Source: Pelosinus sp. UFO1 (GTDB lineage: Bacteria; Bacillota; Negativicutes; DSM-13327). Taken from it: 64,000 nt of DNA. Location: positions 1,827,693-1,891,692 of the forward strand of contig NZ_CP008852.1 of assembly GCF_000725345.1 (NCBI RefSeq). Direction: 5' to 3'. The notes beneath the pieces were generated by a model that was not told where the DNA came from, did no database searches, and saw only the letters and a program-made list of their open reading frames with translations. Both the position numbers and the translations under genes were made by a program. Each line of letters starts with the position of its first letter. Position 1 is the first letter of the stretch. Shown in pieces: positions 9,535-53,103 of this stretch.

Positions 9535-11083
9535 CTTGGATCAGGGCACCATTGGGCGTGGACGGGAGTTAGCTAAGCTGATTGTGGATAAGGTGCAAGA
9601 ACACATTGATGCTCATAGTACAGTTGCGGTTGAGCGATCTGTTTTAAGATTGCTGGGTATAGATGGAATAGACCAAGCAGGGGTGCCTGTAGTTAATAGG
9701 GTGATCGAAGACCTATATGCAGCAGGAGTATTAGGAAAAGGGGCTATGTATTGGCTCGTCAATGCTATGCTTAATACCCAATTATCTCCACAACAAGTTG
9801 CGGAGTATGTTGTAAATGGAGAGATTAATTTAGTGGAATTACCTATAAAATCAGATCAGGAGATAGAGAAATTAGCCGATCAACTTGCTATCTCAGCATT
9901 ACATAAAATTCAAGATCGCCGTGAAGAAAGAGAAAGGCTGATTGCTGATTTAGGCAAGGGGCCAGAGCCTATGCTTTATGTAATTGTAGCGACCGGAAAT
10001 GTTTATGAGGATGTCATTCAAGCTCAGGCTGCAGCTAGGCAAGGGGCAGACATCATTGCTGTAATTCGTACTACAGGACAAAGTTTGTTGGATTATGTTC
10101 CTTATGGACCTACTACTACTGGGTTTGGCGGTACGTATGCTACTCAGGCTAATTTTAAAATCCTGCGGGAAGCGCTGGATGAAGTGGGGCAAGAAGTAAA
10201 CCGGTATATTTATCTGACAAATTATTGTTCGGGGTTATGTATGCCTGAGATTGCGGTGATGGGGGCCCTGGAGCGTCTGGATGTTATGCTCAATGACTCT
10301 ATGTACGGTATTATTTTCAGGGATATAAATATGAAGCGTACCTTTGTTGACCAATTCTTTTCTCGTTTAATTAATGGCTATGCTGGTATTATCATCAATA
10401 CTGGTGAAGATAATTACTTAACAACGGCTGATGCCATGGAAAGCGGTCATACTGTGCTGGCTTCTGAATTGATCAATGAACAGTTTGCCTTCCGGTGTGG
10501 TATGGTTTCAGAGCAACTTGGTCTTGGGCATGCTTTTGAAATTGATCCCAAAACACCCAATGGTTTTCTCTATGAATTAGCTCAGGCTCAACTGGTCAGG
10601 GAGGTTTTTCCACATAGTCCGATCAAGTATATGCCGCCGACTAAATTTATGACAGGAAATATCTTTAAAGGTCATGTACAGGATACCCTCTTTAATGTGT
10701 GCTCGATTATGACAGGACAGAGTTTACATCTCTTAGGCATACTGACAGAGGCAATTCACACACCTCTTATTCAAGACAGGTTTTTGAGTATAGAGTCAGC
10801 CCGCTATGTTTTTGATAATATGCGAGGACTTGCCGATGAAATTTCCTTTAAGAAAGATGGAGTTATCCAGCAACGGGCAAGTGAAGTATTAGAAAAGGCT
10901 GTTATATTGTTGGAAGAAATCGCTGAAATAGGATTAATGCAGGCTTTAGCTGCAGGATATTTTGCTGATATAGCACGTACTCCAGAAGGCGGGAAAGGCT
11001 TAAATGGAGTCATTGTACGTGAAAATGGCTATCTTAATCCCTTTATTCCCCTAATGTTTAAAGGAGGAAGAAGGAATGGTTGA
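9521..11083 (+). CDS. kamD: Lysine 5,6-aminomutase, alpha subunit
   Basis: With KamE, moves the terminal amino group of L-beta-lysine (or D-lysine) from C6 to C5, using adenosylcobalamin and PLP. 520 residues, standard for the family, with the conserved stretches PYGPTTTGFGGTYATQANFK and YLTNYCSGLCMPEIAVMGA. The start TTG 9521 has AAGGGGGG 6 bases upstream, inside the end of the regulator gene (14-base overlap), and the next gene overlaps by 8 bases, so the subunits are translationally coupled. Confidence 0.95.
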   Translation: MKKLNLDQGTIGRGRELAKLIVDKVQEHIDAHSTVAVERSVLRLLGIDGIDQAGVPVVNRVIEDLYAAGVLGKGAMYWLVNAMLNTQLSPQQVAEYVVNGEINLVELPIKSDQEIEKLADQLAISALHKIQDRREERERLIADLGKGPEPMLYVIVATGNVYEDVIQAQAAARQGADIIAVIRTTGQSLLDYVPYGPTTTGFGGTYATQANFKILREALDEVGQEVNRYIYLTNYCSGLCMPEIAVMGALERLDVMLNDSMYGIIFRDINMKRTFVDQFFSRLINGYAGIIINTGEDNYLTTADAMESGHTVLASELINEQFAFRCGMVSEQLGLGHAFEIDPKTPNGFLYELAQAQLVREVFPHSPIKYMPPTKFMTGNIFKGHVQDTLFNVCSIMTGQSLHLLGILTEAIHTPLIQDRFLSIESARYVFDNMRGLADEISFKKDGVIQQRASEVLEKAVILLEEIAEIGLMQALAAGYFADIARTPEGGKGLNGVIVRENGYLNPFIPLMFKGGRRNG

Positions 11084-30661: not shown

Positions 30662-30738
30662 GGGGTTATAGCTCAGTTGGTTAGAGCGCTTCGTTGACAT
30701 CGAAGAGGTCTGCGGTTCGAGTCCGCCTAACCCCACCA
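30662..30738 (+). tRNA. tRNA-Val (anticodon GAC)
   Basis: A full cloverleaf can be drawn: acceptor GGGGTTA/TAACCCC, D-loop AGCTCAGTTGGTTAGAGC, anticodon arm CTTCG-TTGACAT-CGAAG, T-arm GCGGTTCGAGTCCGC, and an encoded CCA. The anticodon GAC reads valine. The 3' end is the likely phage attachment site, since the integrase gene lies 120 bases away and points toward it. Confidence 0.96.
30714..30738. other. Probable left attachment site (attL) in tRNA-Val
   Basis: Integrases of tailed phages often use the T-arm to CCA end of a tRNA as the core site. The integrase gene follows directly and ends facing the tRNA, and everything to the right is phage. The exact core cannot be fixed because the right end lies outside the window. 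Confidence 0.5.
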
Positions 30739-30746
30739 GTAAATTC

Positions 30747-30780
30747 AAGCCTTCGCGGTACGCGGGGGCTTTTCTTATTT
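30747..30780 (+). terminator. Terminator after tRNA-Val
   Basis: AAGCC-TT-CGCG-GTA-CGCG-GG-GGCTT hairpin followed by TTCTTATTTTT. It may belong to the phage side of the junction. Confidence 0.75.
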
Positions 30781-30859
30781 TTGCCTTGCACCTTATGTTG
30801 CCCCTTGAAGCGTTTTAATATGGACATTTTTATAAAATGTTCGCTGTGTGAGGACTGGC

Positions 30860-32068
30860 TTATTTAGCATGTTTTTTTTGACTTTTTATACTACTTAAGA
30901 CATTTTGCATGACTGAGGCTGTTTCATCTTCGATAGTTTCAATGGTGTGAATATAGGTATCAAGGGTAAAGGATTTTTTTGAATGTCCTAAGCTTTTACT
31001 TACTGCTGCAATATCCATACCATTACGTAAAAGGTAAGAACCGTGTAAGTGTCTTAGTAAATGCGGTGTAAAGTTAAATAAATCATGTTCAAAGCAGAAT
31101 TTCTTCAGGAATGAATTCAATGCGTGTGGGTGACCAATACTTCCATCTGGTTGAGAAAAGAGCCACTTATCACTACTGATAGGATCATCTAGAAGGACTA
31201 CTTTATTACGTTTTGCTCTTCGCATAGCAAGGGCTTTTATTTCCGCATTATAACTCTCTCTTAATTTCATAACCGAGATTGGGAGAGATATAGTTCTTTC
31301 GCTGTTATTTGTTTTAGTTAACCCTATATGTATTCCTTCTCCTGGAATGTATGTCGCTGCTCGTTCAATCTTTGCGGTATTTTTTTCAGCATTAAAATCA
31401 CCCTGCTTTAGTGCCGAAAGTTCTTCTCGTCTTAATCCACCAGCAAAGGCTAGCATACACATCAATTGACTCTTTAATGGTGCTTTACTTAGGCAATCAA
31501 AGAATTTAACAACTTCTTCTTGAGTGGGTATTTCTTTTTGTTTCTTCCTCGTGCGGGGTTTGTCTAATTTTTCTAACGGGTTAGAGGTAGTGAGCTCCCA
31601 CTTTAGGGCAGAAGAAAAGAGTAATTGTAATAACTCTCGATATTTAGCGATACTTCGATCAGTGAACGGTGTATCGTTATTTTTTGCGTCCTGTTTAGAA
31701 AGCTGAGCAAAGAAATCAACCAACTGAATAGGCTTAATCTTATCTATTCGCAAATGTCCTAATGCGGCATTTATACGAACAAACACCTGGTTATAACAAG
31801 CCATTGTTGTTTTTGCATAACGTGCAATAGCAAATTTTTCTTTCCAGTAATCATAAAACTGGCTAAGTGTCATTTTTTCAATACTTGATGCAAGAACTTT
31901 ACCTTGCACACAATCACGAAGAAATAAGTCATAGAGCGCTTTAGCTTCTGTCTGGTTGGAGGCGGTGACAGTTTTGATGAAACCTTGCTGCTTACCAGTA
32001 GCGTCATACCCATTTGGTACAAAAAATTGATAATTGTTGTTGCCGCGATTCCTAATTTTAGACGGCAT
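30860..32068 (-). CDS. Prophage tyrosine integrase
   Basis: 402 residues. An N-terminal AP2-like arm-binding domain (about 1-60) and SAM-like core-binding domain (65-165) are followed by the catalytic domain, with Arg in AGGLRREEL, HxxR as HLLRH and Tyr in SFTLDTYIH. It integrates and excises the prophage, most likely at tRNA-Val. A second, decayed integrase gene lies at 48.0-48.4 kb. The start ATG has GAGGTGATATT upstream. Confidence 0.95.
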   Translation of the reverse strand: MPSKIRNRGNNNYQFFVPNGYDATGKQQGFIKTVTASNQTEAKALYDLFLRDCVQGKVLASSIEKMTLSQFYDYWKEKFAIARYAKTTMACYNQVFVRINAALGHLRIDKIKPIQLVDFFAQLSKQDAKNNDTPFTDRSIAKYRELLQLLFSSALKWELTTSNPLEKLDKPRTRKKQKEIPTQEEVVKFFDCLSKAPLKSQLMCMLAFAGGLRREELSALKQGDFNAEKNTAKIERAATYIPGEGIHIGLTKTNNSERTISLPISVMKLRESYNAEIKALAMRRAKRNKVVLLDDPISSDKWLFSQPDGSIGHPHALNSFLKKFCFEHDLFNFTPHLLRHLHGSYLLRNGMDIAAVSKSLGHSKKSFTLDTYIHTIETIEDETASVMQNVLSSIKSQKKHAK

Positions 32069-45648: not shown

Positions 45649-46024
45649 CCCTAAGATGTTACCTGAATATATATCAGAGGACCTAGAAGCACCACACTAT
45701 TTAATTTAAGTTGTAAATTATGAAGAAGCAAGGGTGTCTAAAGTTGTGGGTGGTTATGAAGTCGGCTTTAAATCAGCAGAATGAAACTATAAGAAAGCAC
45801 TAGCTAAAGCTATGGTGATGCATAAGGATTTTAAAGTAGCAACTATTGTAAAGGCTATGGCTGAAAACGAACTATATGTGATAGAACAAGCTTCTCTACT
45901 AGAACAAGCAGAAGTATTATTGATTATGGGTAAAGCGGAGTTAGAAGGGCGGGACAAACAATATCAAGGTATAAAGAAATTAATTGATCTTGAGGTTCAG
46001 GAGCTAAGAACTTCTAGAGGATAA
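45638..46024 (+). pseudogene. Gene broken by two in-frame stop codons
   Basis: One frame of 129 codons starts MTYDPKMLPEYISEDLEAPH, overlaps the HNH stop, and runs to a TAA at 46022-46024, but is cut by TAA (45707-45709) and TGA (45782-45784). The last 80 codons are a helical domain (MVMHKDFKVATIVKAMAENE). No frameshift is needed, so the decay is recent, or the stops are sequencing errors. Confidence 0.6.
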
Positions 46025-46067
46025 TATTACCTTTTGCCGAAATGTGTATAAATTTGGTAAAAAGGAA
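46020..46067 (+). repeat. Cassette leader repeat R2
   Basis: GATAATATTACCTTTTGCCG then AAATGTGTATAAATTTGGTA. Nearly the same as R3 and R4. The core TGCCGAA (46035-46041) is 36 bases before the start codon. Confidence 0.65.
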
Positions 46068-46076
46068 GTGTGTTTT

Positions 46077-46478
46077 ATGGAATTAGATACTAAACAAAAA
46101 GTACTAATAGCAATTTACACTGAGTATCAAAAAGATATACCAGATATGGCATCAATTACATCTAGTAATTTAGGGATTGATCACGATATATTTAAAATTG
46201 CCTTAGATAAATTAGATAATGAGGGGTTAGTTAATGGATTAAATATTCTTAAAGGCGGATATCGTAGTATTCCAAAACAAGTAATAATTCATCATGCAAA
46301 AATGAGCAGCTATGGGATAAATTACGTTGAAACTAAATTAAACATCCAACCATCTTTAAGTAATAAAGAAAAAGTAAAGGTCGTTATAGATCGTTCTACT
46401 GAATGGGGATGGGAGCAACTTAAAGATATTGGTTCAAAGGTTTTATCGGAAGTAATTAAATCCCATGCGGGTATTTAA
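46077..46478 (+). CDS. Winged-helix-like cargo protein (YjcQ-like)
   Basis: 133 residues. The first 75 look like a winged helix (KQKVLIAIYTEYQKD ... FKIALDKLDNEGLVNGL), similar to the phage YjcQ family; the rest is helical. ATG 46077 follows AAAGGAAG. A terminator (46488) follows, so it is a one-gene unit. Confidence 0.55.
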   Translation: MELDTKQKVLIAIYTEYQKDIPDMASITSSNLGIDHDIFKIALDKLDNEGLVNGLNILKGGYRSIPKQVIIHHAKMSSYGINYVETKLNIQPSLSNKEKVKVVIDRSTEWGWEQLKDIGSKVLSEVIKSHAGI

Positions 46479-46487
46479 AATATTACT

Positions 46488-46511
46488 AAGCGTCCTACGG
46501 GGCGCTTTTTC
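46488..46511 (+). terminator. Terminator
   Basis: AAGCGTCC/GGGGCGCTT hairpin then TTTT; a related hairpin ends the next gene. Confidence 0.8.
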
Positions 46512-46523
46512 TGATATTTTAAA

Positions 46524-46571
46524 GGATAATATTACCTTTTGCCGAAGTATGTAGGAAATGGTAAAAAGGGA
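46524..46571 (+). repeat. Cassette leader repeat R3
   Basis: GATAATATTACCTTTTGCCG then AAGTATGTAGGAAATGGTAA. The first 20 bases equal R2 exactly. Confidence 0.65.
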
Positions 46572-46572
46572 G

Positions 46573-47232
46573 ATGGTTATCATACCTACTGTAAAGGATC
46601 CGGACGGAAGCAATCAAGAGGCAGACAAGATTCCCGAAATATGCCCACATTGTCAATCAAGTATTTCGGTAAAACATATTATTAGTAAACATATAAAGAT
46701 TGAATCAATATTTTATCTGCAAGTAGTTTATTCTTGCCCTAATCAAAAATGTAAGGAGATCATAGTTGCGACATACGAATATAATAGCGGTCAATATTAC
46801 TTGCAAAAGATTGAGCCACAAAAATTTGTTGTTAGTAATTTTCAAAAAGAAATAAGCGATTTATCACCGCAATTTGTTAAAATATATAACGAAGCTTATA
46901 ATGCTGAAACGTTTGGTTTGTTAGAAATTTGTGGACCTGGATATCGTAAAGCCCTTGAGTTTCTAATAAAAGATTATCTTATAGAAAATAATCCTGATAA
47001 TGAAAATGATATAAAAACAAAAATGCTATCTCCTTGTATAAACACATATATATCTGATGTAAATATAAAGTTCTGTGCAGAACGTGCTGCTTGGGTAGGT
47101 AATGACGAAACACATTATGTTCGACGTTGGGATAATAAAGATTTGCAGGATTTAAAAATGTTAATTCAGTTAACAGTTAATTGGATTATGAATGAAATTT
47201 TTACCGAAAAATTTCGAAGTGAAATGCCATAA
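46573..47232 (+). CDS. DUF4145-domain protein
   Basis: 219 residues. An N-terminal zinc ribbon (CPHCQSS ... CPNQKC) is followed by a helical DUF4145 domain (LLEICGPGYRKALEFLIKDY ... VGNDETHYVRRW). DUF4145 is a HEPN-related domain often found in restriction and other defence loci. The start is uncertain: ATG 46573 is only 2 bases after AAAGGG and ATG 46558 lies inside the repeat. Confidence 0.75.
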   Translation: MVIIPTVKDPDGSNQEADKIPEICPHCQSSISVKHIISKHIKIESIFYLQVVYSCPNQKCKEIIVATYEYNSGQYYLQKIEPQKFVVSNFQKEISDLSPQFVKIYNEAYNAETFGLLEICGPGYRKALEFLIKDYLIENNPDNENDIKTKMLSPCINTYISDVNIKFCAERAAWVGNDETHYVRRWDNKDLQDLKMLIQLTVNWIMNEIFTEKFRSEMP

Positions 47233-47249
47233 ATAAGGGTTGTATGCTC

Positions 47250-47277
47250 TAAGCGTCCCAACTACGAGGCGCTTTAT
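47250..47277 (+). terminator. Terminator
   Basis: AAGCGTCCC/GAGGCGCTTTATTAT hairpin directly after the DUF4145 gene; same family as 46488. Confidence 0.7.
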
Positions 47278-47288
47278 TATATTCTGCA

Positions 47289-47336
47289 GGATAATACTTC
47301 CTTTTGTAGAACTGTGTATAAAATGGTAAAAGGATA
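47289..47336 (+). repeat. Cassette leader repeat R4
   Basis: GATAATACTTCCTTTTGTAG then AACTGTGTATAAAATGGTAA. Same layout as R2/R3: element, GGTAAAA, ribosome binding site, ATG. Confidence 0.65.
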
Positions 47337-47351
47337 AAGGAGATATGCTTT

Positions 47352-47696
47352 ATGGGAAATAGAATAGCTGTTGTAACAATTGCTGTAGAATTTAAAAATG
47401 GCCATAATTACACAGATGCTATCAATGAAATAGGTCAAAAGAAGAATAAGTTTTCGCTTCCTCCTATCGATATAAAACGGACTGAGAGGTTTCATGTTTT
47501 TGATGGTTTGGGTTTTGATAGTGGCATAAAAGCTACTTTAAATCTTTTTTTTAAAGACAACGGTAATGGTGGGAGTGTTGCAGTACATCTTCCTAATATC
47601 CAACATGAGTTGGAGAATTTAGAGTCAAAAACATATAATTTAATCGCCATAAGCGAATCCTTATTTTGGTACCATACTTATGATACAAACCGCTAA
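47352..47696 (+). CDS. Cargo protein, unknown
   Basis: 114 residues, alpha/beta, no cysteines, with NLFFKDNGNGGSVAVHLPN. No recognised family. AAAGGAGATATGCTTT precedes the ATG, and it stands alone between R4 and a terminator (47743). Confidence 0.5.
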   Translation: MGNRIAVVTIAVEFKNGHNYTDAINEIGQKKNKFSLPPIDIKRTERFHVFDGLGFDSGIKATLNLFFKDNGNGGSVAVHLPNIQHELENLESKTYNLIAISESLFWYHTYDTNR

Positions 47697-48014: not shown

Positions 48015-48404
48015 TTGAAGGCAATTGGTGGTAAGAGTGAGCAAACACCTAAAAATTATCGTTCACAGCTTAATAAACTTATGGAATGGTTTAAAAATAA
48101 CGGTGGTACAGGTGATCCTAAGAGATAACTTCGATTGATGCCGTTGAGTATCGAACTTATTCGCAGGAGGTAAGGAAGCTAAAGCCTGCTAGTATTAATA
48201 CTGCACTGGCAGCAATTGAATCCGTTTGTGTTTGGCTGATAGAAGAAGGGCATAACATACTGTCACGACTTAGTCAGTAAAGGGGTGTTTATTGAATTGG
48301 TAGCGAAGTTAGCCGGTCATGCTAAGATTGAGGCGACTATGATCTATACTCAACTAGGTGAGCAGGAGATGCAGGCTGTGGTGGAGAAGCTGGGGTTTAG
48401 CTAA
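48015..48404 (+). pseudogene. Decayed second tyrosine integrase
   Basis: Pieces of one integrase in changing frames: LKAIGGKSEQTPKNYRSQLN (N-terminal arm), ITSIDAVEYRTYSQEVRKLK and VCVWLIEEGHN (core-binding domain), then, after loss of the catalytic middle, HDLVSKGVFIELVAKLAGHA and MIYTQLGEQEMQAVVEKLGFS-stop (catalytic Tyr region and tail). Its 3' end is the first and longest of four integrase tails in this region. Confidence 0.85.
48348..48404 (+). repeat. Integrase-tail repeat T1
   Basis: Encodes YTQLGEQEMQAVVEKLGFS-stop. It ends 23 bases before the start of the next cargo gene. Confidence 0.75.
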
Positions 48405-48427
48405 TTACAGATTAGGAGGCGAATATT

Positions 48428-49120
48428 TTGTTAAATACAGATTCAATGTACATTGAACTTAAAGGTGATTCGGGAAGAATCGAGCAGTATAAAGAGTTTG
48501 CTGGCGAAGGTAATATTGAGATTGTTAAAGATGCGCAAAGTTATTACATAACATCACCAGAACTTCAGGCAATGTCATCTGACGTCGAATCATATAAAAA
48601 AGGGCAAGAACTGCTAGATTTGCTTCATGGCATTTCTGCTGTTATTTATGGTGGACCATTTGGTATTTCTCTCGGAACAGTAAATCGCACTCCTGGGATG
48701 CAACGCGGGTCTGGAAGTAGCTTTATTAGTGCTAGGGCAACTATAGTCAAAGCACCAAGTGAGGATTTATCACTAGCTGCAAAGAATCTTATCAGTGCAG
48801 CTAAAAATGTGCCTGTAATTTTAGAGTGTTTAAGATACTTTTGTTTAGGACATCCATCAATTTTTGATATGTATAAAATATATGAGATAATTCGAACTGA
48901 CTGCGGTGGGCATGATGAAGTTCATAAGCGTGGCTATATCGATAAAACAATCTTAAATGATTTATGCAGTAATATTAATCATTCTAAGCTACAGGGAGAA
49001 CAAGCTCGCCATGCTAGAATGCCAGGCCGTGATCCCAAGCCTGAAAGTTATATGCCAATTGAGGAAATGCAACGTACTGTAATTATGATATTCAATAAAT
49101 GGGTGAACGATAAAGTTTAA
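48428..49120 (+). CDS. Cargo protein, unknown
   Basis: 230 residues. A middle with GGPFGISLGTVNRTPGMQRG and a helical C-terminal part with SKLQGEQARHARMPGRDPKP, recalling the ARHA... motif found at the end of some HEPN-like or abortive-infection proteins; I do not recognise the family firmly. TTG 48428 follows TTAGGAGGCGAATATT. It is the first of four genes placed behind integrase tails. Confidence 0.55.
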   Translation: MLNTDSMYIELKGDSGRIEQYKEFAGEGNIEIVKDAQSYYITSPELQAMSSDVESYKKGQELLDLLHGISAVIYGGPFGISLGTVNRTPGMQRGSGSSFISARATIVKAPSEDLSLAAKNLISAAKNVPVILECLRYFCLGHPSIFDMYKIYEIIRTDCGGHDEVHKRGYIDKTILNDLCSNINHSKLQGEQARHARMPGRDPKPESYMPIEEMQRTVIMIFNKWVNDKV

Positions 49121-49180
49121 TTTCGGGATCTTTTCTTATGATCCTATAGACAGGTGTAAGGATGATTAGGTGAATAATAG

Positions 49181-49216
49181 CTACTGGTAGCAGTGGAAAA
49201 GTTGAGGTTTAGTTAA
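49181..49216 (+). repeat. Integrase-tail repeat T2
   Basis: GTAGCAGTGGAAAAGTTGAG then GTTTAGTTAA encodes VAVEKLRFS-stop, the shortest and most diverged tail. It is followed after about 75 bases by the cargo gene at 49291. Confidence 0.6.
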
Positions 49217-49290
49217 ATAAAGTTATGATTTTGTAGTAGGTAAATGTATTTTTTTTGTAGAATAAATCAAATAAAAAAGGAGTTGATTAT

Positions 49291-49875
49291 TTGATTTATG
49301 AAAAAACCTTAAAAAAGTGTATGCTAATGCTAAAGGCAATTTTGTTTATGCTTATTGAATTTGTCATTTCCCTATTTTCTATATTATCGAAACTAACCTT
49401 TTTGGATTATATAGTTATGAGATTAATTTGTAGTGCCCGAAGAATGTTTACCCCTATCAACAAAGCACTAATTAAAAGCAGACTTTTTAGTCAACTTTCT
49501 ATGTCCATTTCATTTCAAGAGCTACAAGCCATTCGGGATAATAATAGCATATCAGAAGGATATAGAAGCTTAATAAAACTAATTACTTTGTTTACTGATA
49601 TAAATGACATTGAAAATTATAAGGGTGAAAAATTTTACACCGATACTAACCAAATAATTTATGGATTTATTAGTAATAAAAGAAGAAATCCTTTGCTTAA
49701 GCATATGAAAATCGAGGTTACTGGTATATACAAAGGAATTCAACCATGTGAAAAATTAAATTTGATGCATTCTAGGACGTTTGTCCGTAGTGTTTTTAGT
49801 AAAAAGATCATTAGATTGGTTCAGTTTATCTATAGAGTAGAAACAATGTATGTTTTAGAGATAGAAATAATATAA
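49291..49875 (+). CDS. Cargo membrane-associated protein, unknown
   Basis: 194 residues, basic. N-terminal hydrophobic helices (LMLKAILFMLIEFVISLFSI) and a basic soluble domain. TTG 49291 follows AAAAGGAG at 8 bases. It ends in a terminator at 49874. No family recognised. Confidence 0.5.
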   Translation: MIYEKTLKKCMLMLKAILFMLIEFVISLFSILSKLTFLDYIVMRLICSARRMFTPINKALIKSRLFSQLSMSISFQELQAIRDNNSISEGYRSLIKLITLFTDINDIENYKGEKFYTDTNQIIYGFISNKRRNPLLKHMKIEVTGIYKGIQPCEKLNLMHSRTFVRSVFSKKIIRLVQFIYRVETMYVLEIEII

Positions 49876-49898
49876 GAGCCGTAAGGGCTCTTTCTTTT
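49874..49898 (+). terminator. Terminator
   Basis: AAGAGCC/GGCTCTT hairpin followed by TCTTTTT; the left arm lies on the stop codon. Confidence 0.85.
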
Positions 49899-49904
49899 TA
49901 ACTT

Positions 49905-49984
49905 AAAAACAGAAGTAATTGAATATTACACTCAGCCAGCGAACAGGAAATGCAGGCTGTGGTGGAGAAGTTAATTTTAGTTAA
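49905..49984 (+). repeat. Integrase-tail repeat T3
   Basis: In two frames it encodes TEVIEYYTQP and SEQEMQAVVEKL, a different integrase allele from T1 though the stretch GAAATGCAGGCTGTGGTGGA is nearly the same. The next gene starts 24 bases later. Confidence 0.75.
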
Positions 49985-50007
49985 TCAGCAGAGTAGGAAG
50001 TGATAGT

Positions 50008-50940
50008 ATGCCATCAATTGTATTAGAATTTCAGAATGAGATAATTATGTCAAACAGCCGATTGACGGACTTATTACGAAAAGGATTACTTATTGCTAAA
50101 AAATTAAAACTAAGCGAATTTGAAAATTGGATAATTAATGAACTGGATGGATATAAGTCAATGGAGTATTTGCCGGAGTATAGGAAGTTGCAAGGACTTT
50201 TATATTTTAGCAATCCATATACAGGTACTCGTCCAGTAGGCATTTCAAACGGAGACTTAGAAAAAACAATAACTACACGACCTATGTTTTACTCAGTATC
50301 AGAACTAGAAGCAATGTCGAAAAAACAGAAAGAAGATGGTGGAAGTTTTGAAGTTGTATTTCCAGGTGGGATGCAATTAAAGTTGCAGGAGATGTGCGGA
50401 TGTTCCTCGGACTATCGATTTGTGTTACATCTTCAAATTTATCAGATAGAGGGAATTGTTGATGCTGTTAGGAATACTTTACTAAAATGGGCGCTCCAAC
50501 TTGGAGAAGATGGAATTTTGGGAGATGGTATCGTGTTCTCAGACAAAGAAAAAGAGGCTGCTGCTTTGCCTAGGTACAGCACTGTTAATTATTTCTATGC
50601 ACCAGTTCAAAATTCTCAAATCCAGCAACAGACCCAGGGATCTACACAGTCATTAACTGTAGAACAGGTGGATTTTGAGAAAATTAAGGAAACAGTTCAA
50701 GACATATTGACTAAACTTGATACTTTAGGGGTGGAGGGTAGTCAGAAAGAGGATTTAGGGGTTGAATTGCAAACGATGTTTTCTCAACTTAAATCTTCTA
50801 ATCCTAAAATTGGCGTTTTGAGAGAATGCTGGGCGAGTGCAAGAAACATATTAGAAGGAGTAACCGGAGGTTTAATAGCAAGTGGGCTTGCGGTTAAGAT
50901 TCAGTGGTTATCCGAATTACTGAAAAGCAAACCCGGTTAA
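50008..50940 (+). CDS. AbiTii-domain abortive infection-type protein
   Basis: 310 residues. The N-terminal AbiTii domain is recognised by LTDLLRKGLLIAKKLKLSEF, ENWIINELDGY and EYRKLQGLLYFSNPYTG. A Gln-rich linker (about 203-222) leads to a helical C-terminal domain. AbiTii domains occur in genes tied to abortive infection. ATG 50008 follows AGGAAGTGATAGT. Confidence 0.8.
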   Translation: MPSIVLEFQNEIIMSNSRLTDLLRKGLLIAKKLKLSEFENWIINELDGYKSMEYLPEYRKLQGLLYFSNPYTGTRPVGISNGDLEKTITTRPMFYSVSELEAMSKKQKEDGGSFEVVFPGGMQLKLQEMCGCSSDYRFVLHLQIYQIEGIVDAVRNTLLKWALQLGEDGILGDGIVFSDKEKEAAALPRYSTVNYFYAPVQNSQIQQQTQGSTQSLTVEQVDFEKIKETVQDILTKLDTLGVEGSQKEDLGVELQTMFSQLKSSNPKIGVLRECWASARNILEGVTGGLIASGLAVKIQWLSELLKSKPG

Positions 50941-50967
50941 CAATGGGTTTGCATTAAACAATAGAAT

Positions 50968-50993
50968 AAGAGCCTTTGGGCTCTTTTCTTTTT
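50968..50993 (+). terminator. Terminator
   Basis: AAGAGCC-TTTG-GGCTCTT hairpin then TTCTTTTT. Confidence 0.85.
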
Positions 50994-51014
50994 ATTCTAA
51001 AGAAAGGTGTAACT

Positions 51015-51080
51015 GATAATCTACATTCAGACAGGAGCAGGAGTTGAGGGCGATGGTGGAGAAGTTGGGATTTAGCTAGT
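51015..51080 (+). repeat. Integrase-tail repeat T4
   Basis: Encodes IIYIQT then, after a one-base shift, EQELRAMVEKLGFS-stop. The next gene starts 27 bases later. Confidence 0.75.
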
Positions 51081-51106
51081 AAATATTATTTAGGCGGTGT
51101 ATTATT

Positions 51107-52000
51107 TTGGGTAGTAACGCTGATAATGAAGTCGGATTAAAGGAACAAGAAAAAAAGAAATGCTTTATTATAACGCCAGTTGGTCCGAATCACTCGGATA
51201 TAAGAAGAGCTGCAGATGGTGTAATACAATCAGGTATAATTCCAATACTAGAAGAGTTAAATTTTCAAGCAGATATTCCACATCAACTATCCGAATCGGG
51301 GTCAATAACAAAGAGTGTTATTAATAAGATAATTGATAATGATTTAGTGATTGCTAATCTTACTGGGCTTAATCCTAATGTGATGTATGAGCTTGGTATA
51401 AGGCATGCTGCTAGAAAACCAATAGTTCATATTTGCGATCAAAATACCAAGCTACCTTTTGATATTGCACCTGAAAGAACACTTTTTTATATTGATGATA
51501 TGTTAGGGATACAAGAATTTAAACCAGAATTAAAAAAATATATTCAAGCTGCTTTGGCTGAATCTGAACCAAGTAATCCAGTATATGATGCAATCCAAGC
51601 AAAATCTATAATGAAAAGTATTGAAATTAGCGATCCCTTAAGATTTGTCTTAAAAGCTATTGAAGATTTAAAAACTAAGCTTTCTAGAGAAGATAACATT
51701 AGAGATATTGATTTGCATGAAAGAGCTAGGCATAGAAATCTGATGAAAATAAATGCTCAGAAACTCGATGCTAGTTTTCAGATAATAGAATTTACTATAC
51801 AAGCACCTGATATTGTTCCCGAAATATTGGAAGGTTTGGAAGATATACTTACTAAATCTTGCCCTTGGATACAAGTGAGCTTGGAGTATAATATTAATAG
51901 CTGTAAACTTATAATTAAAATCCCACTAGAAACTAATGCAGTGCCTATTTATAATCTTGTAAAAAAATATATGATTGAAAACAACTTAGAAATAGAGTGA
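51107..52000 (+). CDS. TIR-like / nucleoside deoxyribosyltransferase-fold protein
   Basis: 297 residues. The N-terminal half has KCFIITPVGPNHSDIRRAAD, VINKIIDNDLVIANLTGLNP, NVMYELGIRHAARKP and IVHICDQ, the pattern of TIR-like and deoxyribosyltransferase-like domains that cleave NAD or nucleotides in bacterial defence. The C-terminal half is helical then beta, perhaps a sensor. TTG 51107 has a weak site (GGCGGTG). It is the last cargo gene before the packaging genes. Confidence 0.75.
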   Translation: MGSNADNEVGLKEQEKKKCFIITPVGPNHSDIRRAADGVIQSGIIPILEELNFQADIPHQLSESGSITKSVINKIIDNDLVIANLTGLNPNVMYELGIRHAARKPIVHICDQNTKLPFDIAPERTLFYIDDMLGIQEFKPELKKYIQAALAESEPSNPVYDAIQAKSIMKSIEISDPLRFVLKAIEDLKTKLSREDNIRDIDLHERARHRNLMKINAQKLDASFQIIEFTIQAPDIVPEILEGLEDILTKSCPWIQVSLEYNINSCKLIIKIPLETNAVPIYNLVKKYMIENNLEIE

Positions 52001-52027
52001 AGTAGCTTATTGCTGCTTCTTTTTTTT
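52001..52027 (+). terminator. Terminator
   Basis: AGTAGC/GCTGCT hairpin followed by TCTTTTTTTT. Confidence 0.75.
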
Positions 52028-52052: not shown

Positions 52053-52367
52053 ATGGCAAAAGATATAAGAGGTGAATTTGACAATGAATTTCTAGCAGAA
52101 GTTAAATCAATGTCACCTCCACCAGTTCTAGATAATTCCCAGTTAATAACTGTACCATCAGAAGAAGCTCATAACGCACTGATCGCAAATCAGCAGCATG
52201 AACTAGCGCAGACCAAACGTGAATTAGCAGCCAACAAGCGTAAATCCTACCTCACTAGCGACGAGATTCCAGTCCGTCCCTGTACTAGCGACTGTCCTAA
52301 TCGTGATCGCTGTCGTGACTTCGTGAAAGGGCGAGTGTCTGATTGTGAACGAATCAGAAGGATATAA
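52053..52367 (+). CDS. Small Cys-rich phage protein before terminase
   Basis: 104 residues. A helical middle (HELAQTKRELAANKRKS) and a C-terminal Cys cluster (CTSDCPNRDRCRDF) that may bind zinc. ATG 52053 follows GGAAGGAGGTGACATAGTT. Function unknown. Confidence 0.6.
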   Translation: MAKDIRGEFDNEFLAEVKSMSPPPVLDNSQLITVPSEEAHNALIANQQHELAQTKRELAANKRKSYLTSDEIPVRPCTSDCPNRDRCRDFVKGRVSDCERIRRI

Positions 52368-52442
52368 GCGCGGTGAAAAGTGGGTTGGGAATTGAGATAT
52401 GAAGATTACCTAAGGTACTCCCAGGGGCATAAATGTCTTACG

Positions 52443-52485
52443 GGTCTAGCGAGCCCCAAAATTTCGCTAGCCGCAGACCGTTTTT
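52443..52485 (+). other. Candidate cos/packaging region hairpin
   Basis: A nested hairpin: GGTC/GACC outside and TAGCGA/TCGCTA inside around GCCCCAAAATT, followed by GTTTTT. It lies just before the terminase small subunit, where lambda-like phages carry cos. It may equally be a terminator. The 52368-52563 gap has no other gene. Confidence 0.4.
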
Positions 52486-52563
52486 ATCCATTTCGCTTTC
52501 GCATTATTCCTAAATGAGAATAGCAGTAGACATAAGAAAAAATAAGCGTTGGGAGGTGTTTTT

Positions 52564-53103
52564 ATGACTGACAAAATGCGAAATACAGTATCAACTTCAT
52601 TGCTGGCAGAAATTATTGGCGTAACGTCAAGGAGAGTGCAACAACTCACGAAAGAAATTCCATTAGAGCAAGTATCTCGTGGGACATATGATTTGCCGAT
52701 TACTGTACAAAAATATGTTGTCTGGATAAAGGATAGCGCTGCAGCTAGTAATGAAGGAGAGGCAAATTTACAGATAGAAAAAACCCTCCTAACGCGAGCT
52801 CAGCGAAAAAAGGCGGAACGGTTACTGCAGTTAATGGATGGCGAATTGCACAAAGCTGACGATGTTAAATTTATCGTAGGCAATATGGTTGCTACTGTAA
52901 GATCACGACTATTAGATATTCCTGCAAAGCTATCTCCTAAGATGATTGCCCAAAAAGATATTGATATTGTTCGTGCCATTATTCAAGATGAAATATACTT
53001 AGCCCTTGAAACATTATCTGACTACGATCCAGAGCCGTATAAACGGCGCAGTCGTGAGTACGTGGAAGCGGTGGCAGATGGCGAAGCACACGAACTCGAA
53101 TAG
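52564..53103 (+). CDS. Terminase small subunit (Nu1-like)
   Basis: 179 residues. An N-terminal helix-turn-helix (LLAEIIGVTSRRVQQLTKE) that would bind cos, and a helical assembly domain (TRAQRKKAERLLQLMDGEL). Typical of the small subunit paired with GpA-type large terminases. ATG 52564 follows TGGGAGGTGTTTTT. Confidence 0.85.
   Translation: MTDKMRNTVSTSLLAEIIGVTSRRVQQLTKEIPLEQVSRGTYDLPITVQKYVVWIKDSAAASNEGEANLQIEKTLLTRAQRKKAERLLQLMDGELHKADDVKFIVGNMVATVRSRLLDIPAKLSPKMIAQKDIDIVRAIIQDEIYLALETLSDYDPEPYKRRSREYVEAVADGEAHELE

Follow-up and report, generated by a model that had tools for sequence, protein, structure and literature searches.

A candidate accessory-gene slot between an Xer-like recombinase gene and the packaging genes of a temperate phage in Pelosinus sp. 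UFO1

Four consecutive single genes in Pelosinus sp. UFO1, each preceded by a short copy of the 3′ end of a tyrosine recombinase gene, probably fill an accessory (and probably defence) gene slot of a temperate phage, with an Xer-like recombinase gene on its left, packaging genes on its right, and a content that would turn over by recombination between phages, a reading to which we assign a probability of roughly 0.6. The window analyzed here is the whole stretch of 64,000 nt from NZ_CP008852.1 (1,827,693-1,891,692, forward strand), and all coordinates are window-based unless another record is named. The place directly behind a packaging-linked Xer-like recombinase gene may serve as an address for phage-borne defence genes, and the recombinase-gene ends left in the array without their gene body, here called orphan tails, would preserve rare physical evidence that genes were added singly. 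The features of the slot and its borders are collected in Table 1.

Table 1. Slot, tails, cargo genes and bordering genes in the window
Feature	Coordinates	Strand	Basis
Left edge of the slot: relic of a second Xer-like tyrosine recombinase gene	48015..48405	+	58% identity to Emery gp1
T1, 3′ end belonging to the relic itself (IYTQLGEQEMQAVVEKLGFS-stop)	48342..48404	+	Repeat family, degenerate pattern
Cargo 1, 230 aa, no known family	48428..49120	+	ORF; L056 homologue at corresponding place
T2, degenerate orphan tail	49160..49215	+	Repeat family; weak alone
Cargo 2, 194 aa, no known family	49291..49875	+	ORF; family searches
Terminator-like site 3′ of cargo 2	49874..49892	+	
T3, orphan tail	49906..49984	+	Repeat family, pattern; nearest relative is the G001 orphan tail before AbiTii
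Cargo 3, AbiTii-family protein, 310 aa	50008..50940	+	Pfam, PADLOC; 68% homologue in G001
Terminator-like site 3′ of cargo 3	50968..50985	+	
T4, orphan tail	51012..51079	+	Repeat family, degenerate pattern
Cargo 4, TIR/deoxyribosyltransferase-like N-terminal domain, 297 aa	51107..52000	+	PADLOC, Pfam, phrog_10872
Terminator-like site 3′ of cargo 4	51999..52019	+	
Right edge of the slot: truncated phrog_26872 gene, presumed to have encoded the small terminase of the original module	52053..52367	+	phrog_26872 1.2e-18
Small terminase of a different packaging module, replacing the original	52549..53103	+	phrog_57 terminase small subunit 5.1e-30

The left edge of the slot is a damaged gene, in which ~79 N-terminal codons carrying frame damage are joined to the last 50 codons, with ~0.45 kb of the middle missing; its intact relatives are ~285 aa long. 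The stitched relic is 58% identical to gp1 of Brevibacillus phage Emery over 97% of the query, and the Emery protein is marked as an Xer-like tyrosine recombinase by its matches to PF00589 (Phage_integrase catalytic domain, 4.9e-29) and PF02899 (SAM-like N-terminal domain, 3e-10) and by its best PDB profile matches, which are XerC/XerA/XerD-type structures (4a8e, 5hxy, 1a0p). The relic is the second, short Xer-like tyrosine recombinase of the packaging region. The original prediction had spoken of an integrase 3′ end; both the relic and its 3′ end are real, while the identity has to be revised to an Xer-like, packaging-linked recombinase that is not the lysogeny integrase. A lysogeny integrase is ruled out here by another integrase gene at 30860-32068, beside tRNA-Val, and by the second recombinases of relatives, with Emery, L054, L055, L056, and L057 each encoding exactly two tyrosine recombinases, one long and one short and packaging-linked. 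In the Emery record (KC595516.1), gp1 (36-908) is the packaging-linked recombinase and gp47 (30675-31829) the longer one. The latter is more likely than gp1 to be the lysogeny integrase; the published temperate call for this phage cites gp1 (PMC4909266). As to the role of the short recombinase, its plasmid relatives suggest that it might act in multimer resolution.

Copies of this recombinase-gene end do stand before four consecutive genes, with tail-to-gene gaps of 23-75 nt, as had been proposed. A repeat finder recovered the family as four copies at 48360, 49172, 49941, and 51035 (100, 66, 73, and 84% to the reference copy), and T1, T3, and T4 are the exact and sole matches to the degenerate tail pattern in the 64 kb, where shuffles give an expectation of 0. 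T2 is the fourth-best match in the 64 kb (score 28 vs 23-26 for the best chance matches), and because it is decayed and scores barely over chance, its credibility rests mostly on its position. Length and placement before each cargo gene are roughly constant among the tails. Similarity among them is 68-81%, no closer than to their best matches in other phages (77-88%), which rejects a recent tandem duplication within the window, agrees with the earlier view that the tails are no recent copies of one sequence, and fits separate imports of the units. The nearest relative of T3 is a tail in another genome of the same genus (G001; 83%), a kinship that is suggestive only because its bootstrap is 55%.

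A scan of IMG/VR for the tail returned L055, L056, and the record of the window itself and no others, and among 380 genomes of the class the tail was present only in the window's own genome and G001. Orphan tails are known from two phages and one prophage remnant only, tail-bearing units occur in three genomes, and stacking is seen in two (four units in the window, two in L056).

All four predicted cargo reading frames are present, and the terminators predicted for three of them can be recognized as terminator-like sites behind genes 2, 3, and 4, with none found 3′ of cargo 1. The assignment of cargo 3 to AbiTii is firm at the family level (Pfam 2.2e-50, PADLOC 3.6e-46), and the TIR-like assignment of cargo 4 is moderately supported by a PADLOC TIR effector match (6.1e-9) and a Pfam Nuc_deoxyrib_tr match below the cut-off (1.2e-5); its strongest match is to phrog_10872 (4.9e-60, function unknown). 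Cargo 1 and cargo 2 had no match in the family libraries tried, including Pfam, PADLOC, and phrog, so the proposed anti-phage type applies to at most two of the four genes. The predicted fold of cargo 1 (mean pLDDT 49) was unusable. Single-sequence scans of viral records with cargo 1, the AbiTii protein, and the TIR-like protein yielded nothing beyond the window's own record; among cellular genomes, AbiTii was found in G001 along with two distant matches (379 genomes of the class), and the TIR-like protein in the window's genome alone (300 genomes). The cargo probably shields the lysogen from other phages.

The same slot can be followed through the relatives of the recombinase, here called clade 1, of which the intact members carry the recombinase gene directly upstream of the packaging genes, in the order recombinase, slot, phrog_26872 gene, large terminase. 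The phrog_26872 gene, whose function is unknown by profile, is presumed from its place to encode the small terminase. Between these borders the slot is empty in Emery, G006 (same genus), L018, L054, L057, and other Brevibacillus, Alicyclobacillus, and metagenomic relatives. It holds one 267-aa gene in L055, and in L056 a cargo-1 homologue (59-60% identity) at the corresponding place, followed by a terminator, a degenerate second tail (~9633-9670) that is weak on sequence alone, a 39-residue gene remnant with no match among the window genes, another terminator, and the phrog_26872 gene. Inspection of the genes downstream of intact integrases, which had been proposed as a check, thus gives intact recombinase, cargo, and packaging genes in both L055 and L056. 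In the window there are four units, then a truncated phrog_26872 gene that matches the N-terminal portion of its full-length counterparts in G006 and L056 at 71-73% identity, and then a different packaging module. Clade 1 therefore presents the slot in empty, one-, two-, and four-unit states. Further clade-1 recombinases were sought in 398 genomes of the phylum, which returned only the contig of L019 and more distant relatives. Separately, window positions 52053-53103 form a mosaic joint, at which the truncated phrog_26872 gene is followed by a phrog_57-type small terminase gene.

Comparison of L055 with L056 gives 82% identity at the tail vs 52-72% elsewhere in the recombinase gene. At synonymous sites the jump falls short of significance (p = 0.13), which leaves a recent exchange at the tail unproven; nor is there a significant sign (p = 0.13) that the tail is constrained as DNA over and above the conservation of its protein.

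Outside the viral records, the tail in G001 lies directly before an AbiTii homologue 68% identical to that of the window, with no recombinase body. To judge from these sequences, tail and cargo travel together. A fixed set of four genes, which the original prediction had named as an outcome that would speak against it, is rejected, because cargo 1 is found without its three companions in L056, as is AbiTii in G001. The proposed modular unit (tail, one gene, and terminator, gained or exchanged beside an integrase gene) is borne out by L055, L056, and G001 as a unit; the part that is revised is the identity of the integrase. The G001 locus itself (C82 8185-20461; L090/L091) is a prophage remnant consisting of integrase and early genes only, after which come the tail and AbiTii, a small ORF, and a GNAT-like gene, with its end near tRNA-Arg; the cargo has been kept although the late genes are gone.

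A second group of short recombinases (clade 2), ~30% identical to clade 1, borders a comparable slot at a different place; here the order is small terminase, recombinase, slot, large terminase. Each of the nine clade-2 records tested has one short tyrosine recombinase, and seven of them have a large serine recombinase too; since the packaging-linked enzyme is the sole tyrosine one and a serine recombinase is present in 7/9, it is again a second recombinase. Across 30 clade-2 loci from IMG/VR (L095-L124), the slot is either empty (three loci, 141-150 nt) or carries one of ~14 cargo types, which were grouped by inspection with L116 left out, as no large terminase was seen there. These include PemK/MazF-like toxins, a SocA/Panacea pair, DUF1643, a GNAT protein, and a pyrimidine dimer glycosylase; most other cargo at this address has no known family. 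Differing cargo stands behind recombinase genes that are 90-95% identical, and an identical cargo type stands behind recombinase genes only 74-79% identical. About 100 nt 3′ of the recombinase gene are conserved before the sequence changes abruptly, and no clade-2 slot contains any tail. A motif, CAGTAGATGGYGTGGAAATTTTT, lies ~70 nt behind the recombinase gene in 30/30 of these loci, just before the variable part.

Under the hotspot-like reading favored here, units would enter when related phages share a cell and recombine, one crossover falling within the conserved recombinase-gene end and a second either within the terminator and packaging-gene leader or past them. In-register events would swap the cargo, off-register events would insert an extra unit with an orphan tail as the trace, and the tandem units probably arose by such off-register recombination at the conserved gene end. 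Later, the recombinase gene of the window would have decayed, and the acquisition of another packaging module would have truncated the presumed small-terminase gene. The tail itself may be a defined exchange site, or it may be a mere stretch of homology that hitch-hikes. The sequences just 5′ of T2, T3, T4, and the L056 tail are mutually related; in a comparison with the small-terminase leader, the recombinase body, and the upstream leader repeat, only that of L056 matched the leader repeat, and they were traced to neither of the partners that the off-register model expects.

Alternatively, the region between early and packaging genes, or beside the cos/pac ends, could simply be a permissive place for late-acquired genes, with the recombinase incidental and the tails being leftovers of illegitimate joins, which we consider unlikely, though worth weighing. 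Hotspots of P2 and P4 lie beside cos with no dedicated recombinase, and the authors of that study suggest that terminase-made ends drive the exchange (PMC9122126). Moreover, the three-gene stack directly upstream in the window (46019-47696) has a shared leader of other origin, so stacking here needs no recombinase tail. Against this, the pairing of recombinase and slot recurs in two clades that place it on opposite sides of the small terminase gene, and three orphan tails in the array plus those of L056 and G001 are many for unconnected illegitimate joins.

An integron-like process, in which the Xer-like recombinase inserts and excises cassettes of tail and gene at a site in or at its own gene end, and in which the tails are sites or scars, appears improbable. 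It would account for a recombinase gene bordering the slot in two clades only ~30% identical and with different lysogeny integrases, for tails of near-constant length and place before each cargo gene, and for the presence of the clade-2 motif just before the variable part in every locus. However, no dif-like dyad (11-nt arms) rose above shuffles in any tail, nor did one in the clade-2 flank; each clade-2 locus has a single copy of the motif, and none lies on the far side of the cargo; the tails lie 5′ of the genes, whereas integron attC sites lie 3′ of them; and the recombinase of the window is dead. The broader proposition, that unrelated temperate lineages keep a dedicated second Xer-like recombinase by the terminase to load and swap one-gene defence cassettes, as a phage counterpart of the integron with the orphan ends as sites or scars, would be a long shot. 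Finally, the recombinase-gene end is part of the cargo leader in L055 and L056, because their cargo begins 12-24 nt past the recombinase stop with no terminator between, and a 40-nt stretch is 90% identical between the tails T3 and that of G001, yet it is very improbable that the tail is kept as a leader (for transcript stability, translation coupling, or regulation) and not via recombination, given that T2 has decayed while its gene stays open, that promoter-like sites in the region are at chance level (30 found vs 29.1 expected), and that clade-2 cargo is exchanged without any tail.

Several described systems share parts of this layout. In integrons, promoter-poor single genes stand in a row behind a recombinase gene, all facing the same way and accompanied by a repeated sequence; the window likewise has a recombinase gene followed by same-orientation single genes with repeats, but here the repeats are pieces of the recombinase gene 5′ of the genes. 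Instead of an integron-type integrase with a working catalytic core, there is a dead Xer-like relic that lacks its middle, with short Xer-like intact relatives, and the dyad search in the tails gave nothing resembling a folded attC site per gene or an attI site by the integrase. In dif/pdif modules, toxin-antitoxin and accessory genes sit in exchangeable modules that are moved by the host XerCD. The exchangeable modules of this kind and the Xer-type recombinase are shared, whereas no pair of dif-like sites brackets the cargo in the slots described here (tails and clade-2 flank) and the recombinase is encoded beside the slot. Phage morons are single extra genes between conserved phage genes, often with their own terminator, as are the units described here, which differ by a common recombinase-derived tail, a fixed slot, and several units stacked in it.

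The layout is best read, from its sequence, as a variant of the phage defence-gene hotspot. Its position between conserved phage genes is constant within clade 1 and within clade 2, cargo turnover between close relatives is high (clade 2 at 90-95% recombinase identity, clade 1 in its unit counts), and known defence families are among the cargo (AbiTii and TIR-like proteins, and in clade 2 PemK and SocA/Panacea toxin-antitoxin parts). Among described systems, the cos-proximal defence hotspot of P2 and P4, reported in 2022, comes closest, which, as set out in that report, shares a fixed place by packaging functions, fast turnover of short modules, and defence and toxin-antitoxin content (PMC9122126). 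In place, the likeness is one of nearness to the packaging genes. The difference is that here an Xer-like recombinase gene borders the slot and the clade-1 units carry a recombinase 3′ end and can stack in tandem; in the main text of that report the word "recombinase" is absent, and we found no mention there of an Xer-like edge or of recombinase-tail units (PMC9122126). We found no description of a recombinase-edged arrangement of tail units in open-licence full texts. The orphan tails make gene exchange at a hotspot testable within one phage family, a question raised and left unanswered in the P2/P4 report (PMC9122126).

A third placement of such recombinase genes in a packaging module is seen in a Parageobacillus phage (L140, CP063417.1 3453-4286), where a related gene, in the opposite orientation, separates the small terminase gene from the large one. 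In the window, the upstream stack at 46019-47696 consists of three more unrelated genes, each after a common ~50-nt leader (AGGATAATATTACCTTTTGCCGAA...) that differs from the slot tails and contains TTTTGCCGAA, resembling a Spo0A box, and each ending near a terminator-like hairpin. One such leader is also present in G006, where it stands before a different gene (L075 7085-7145).
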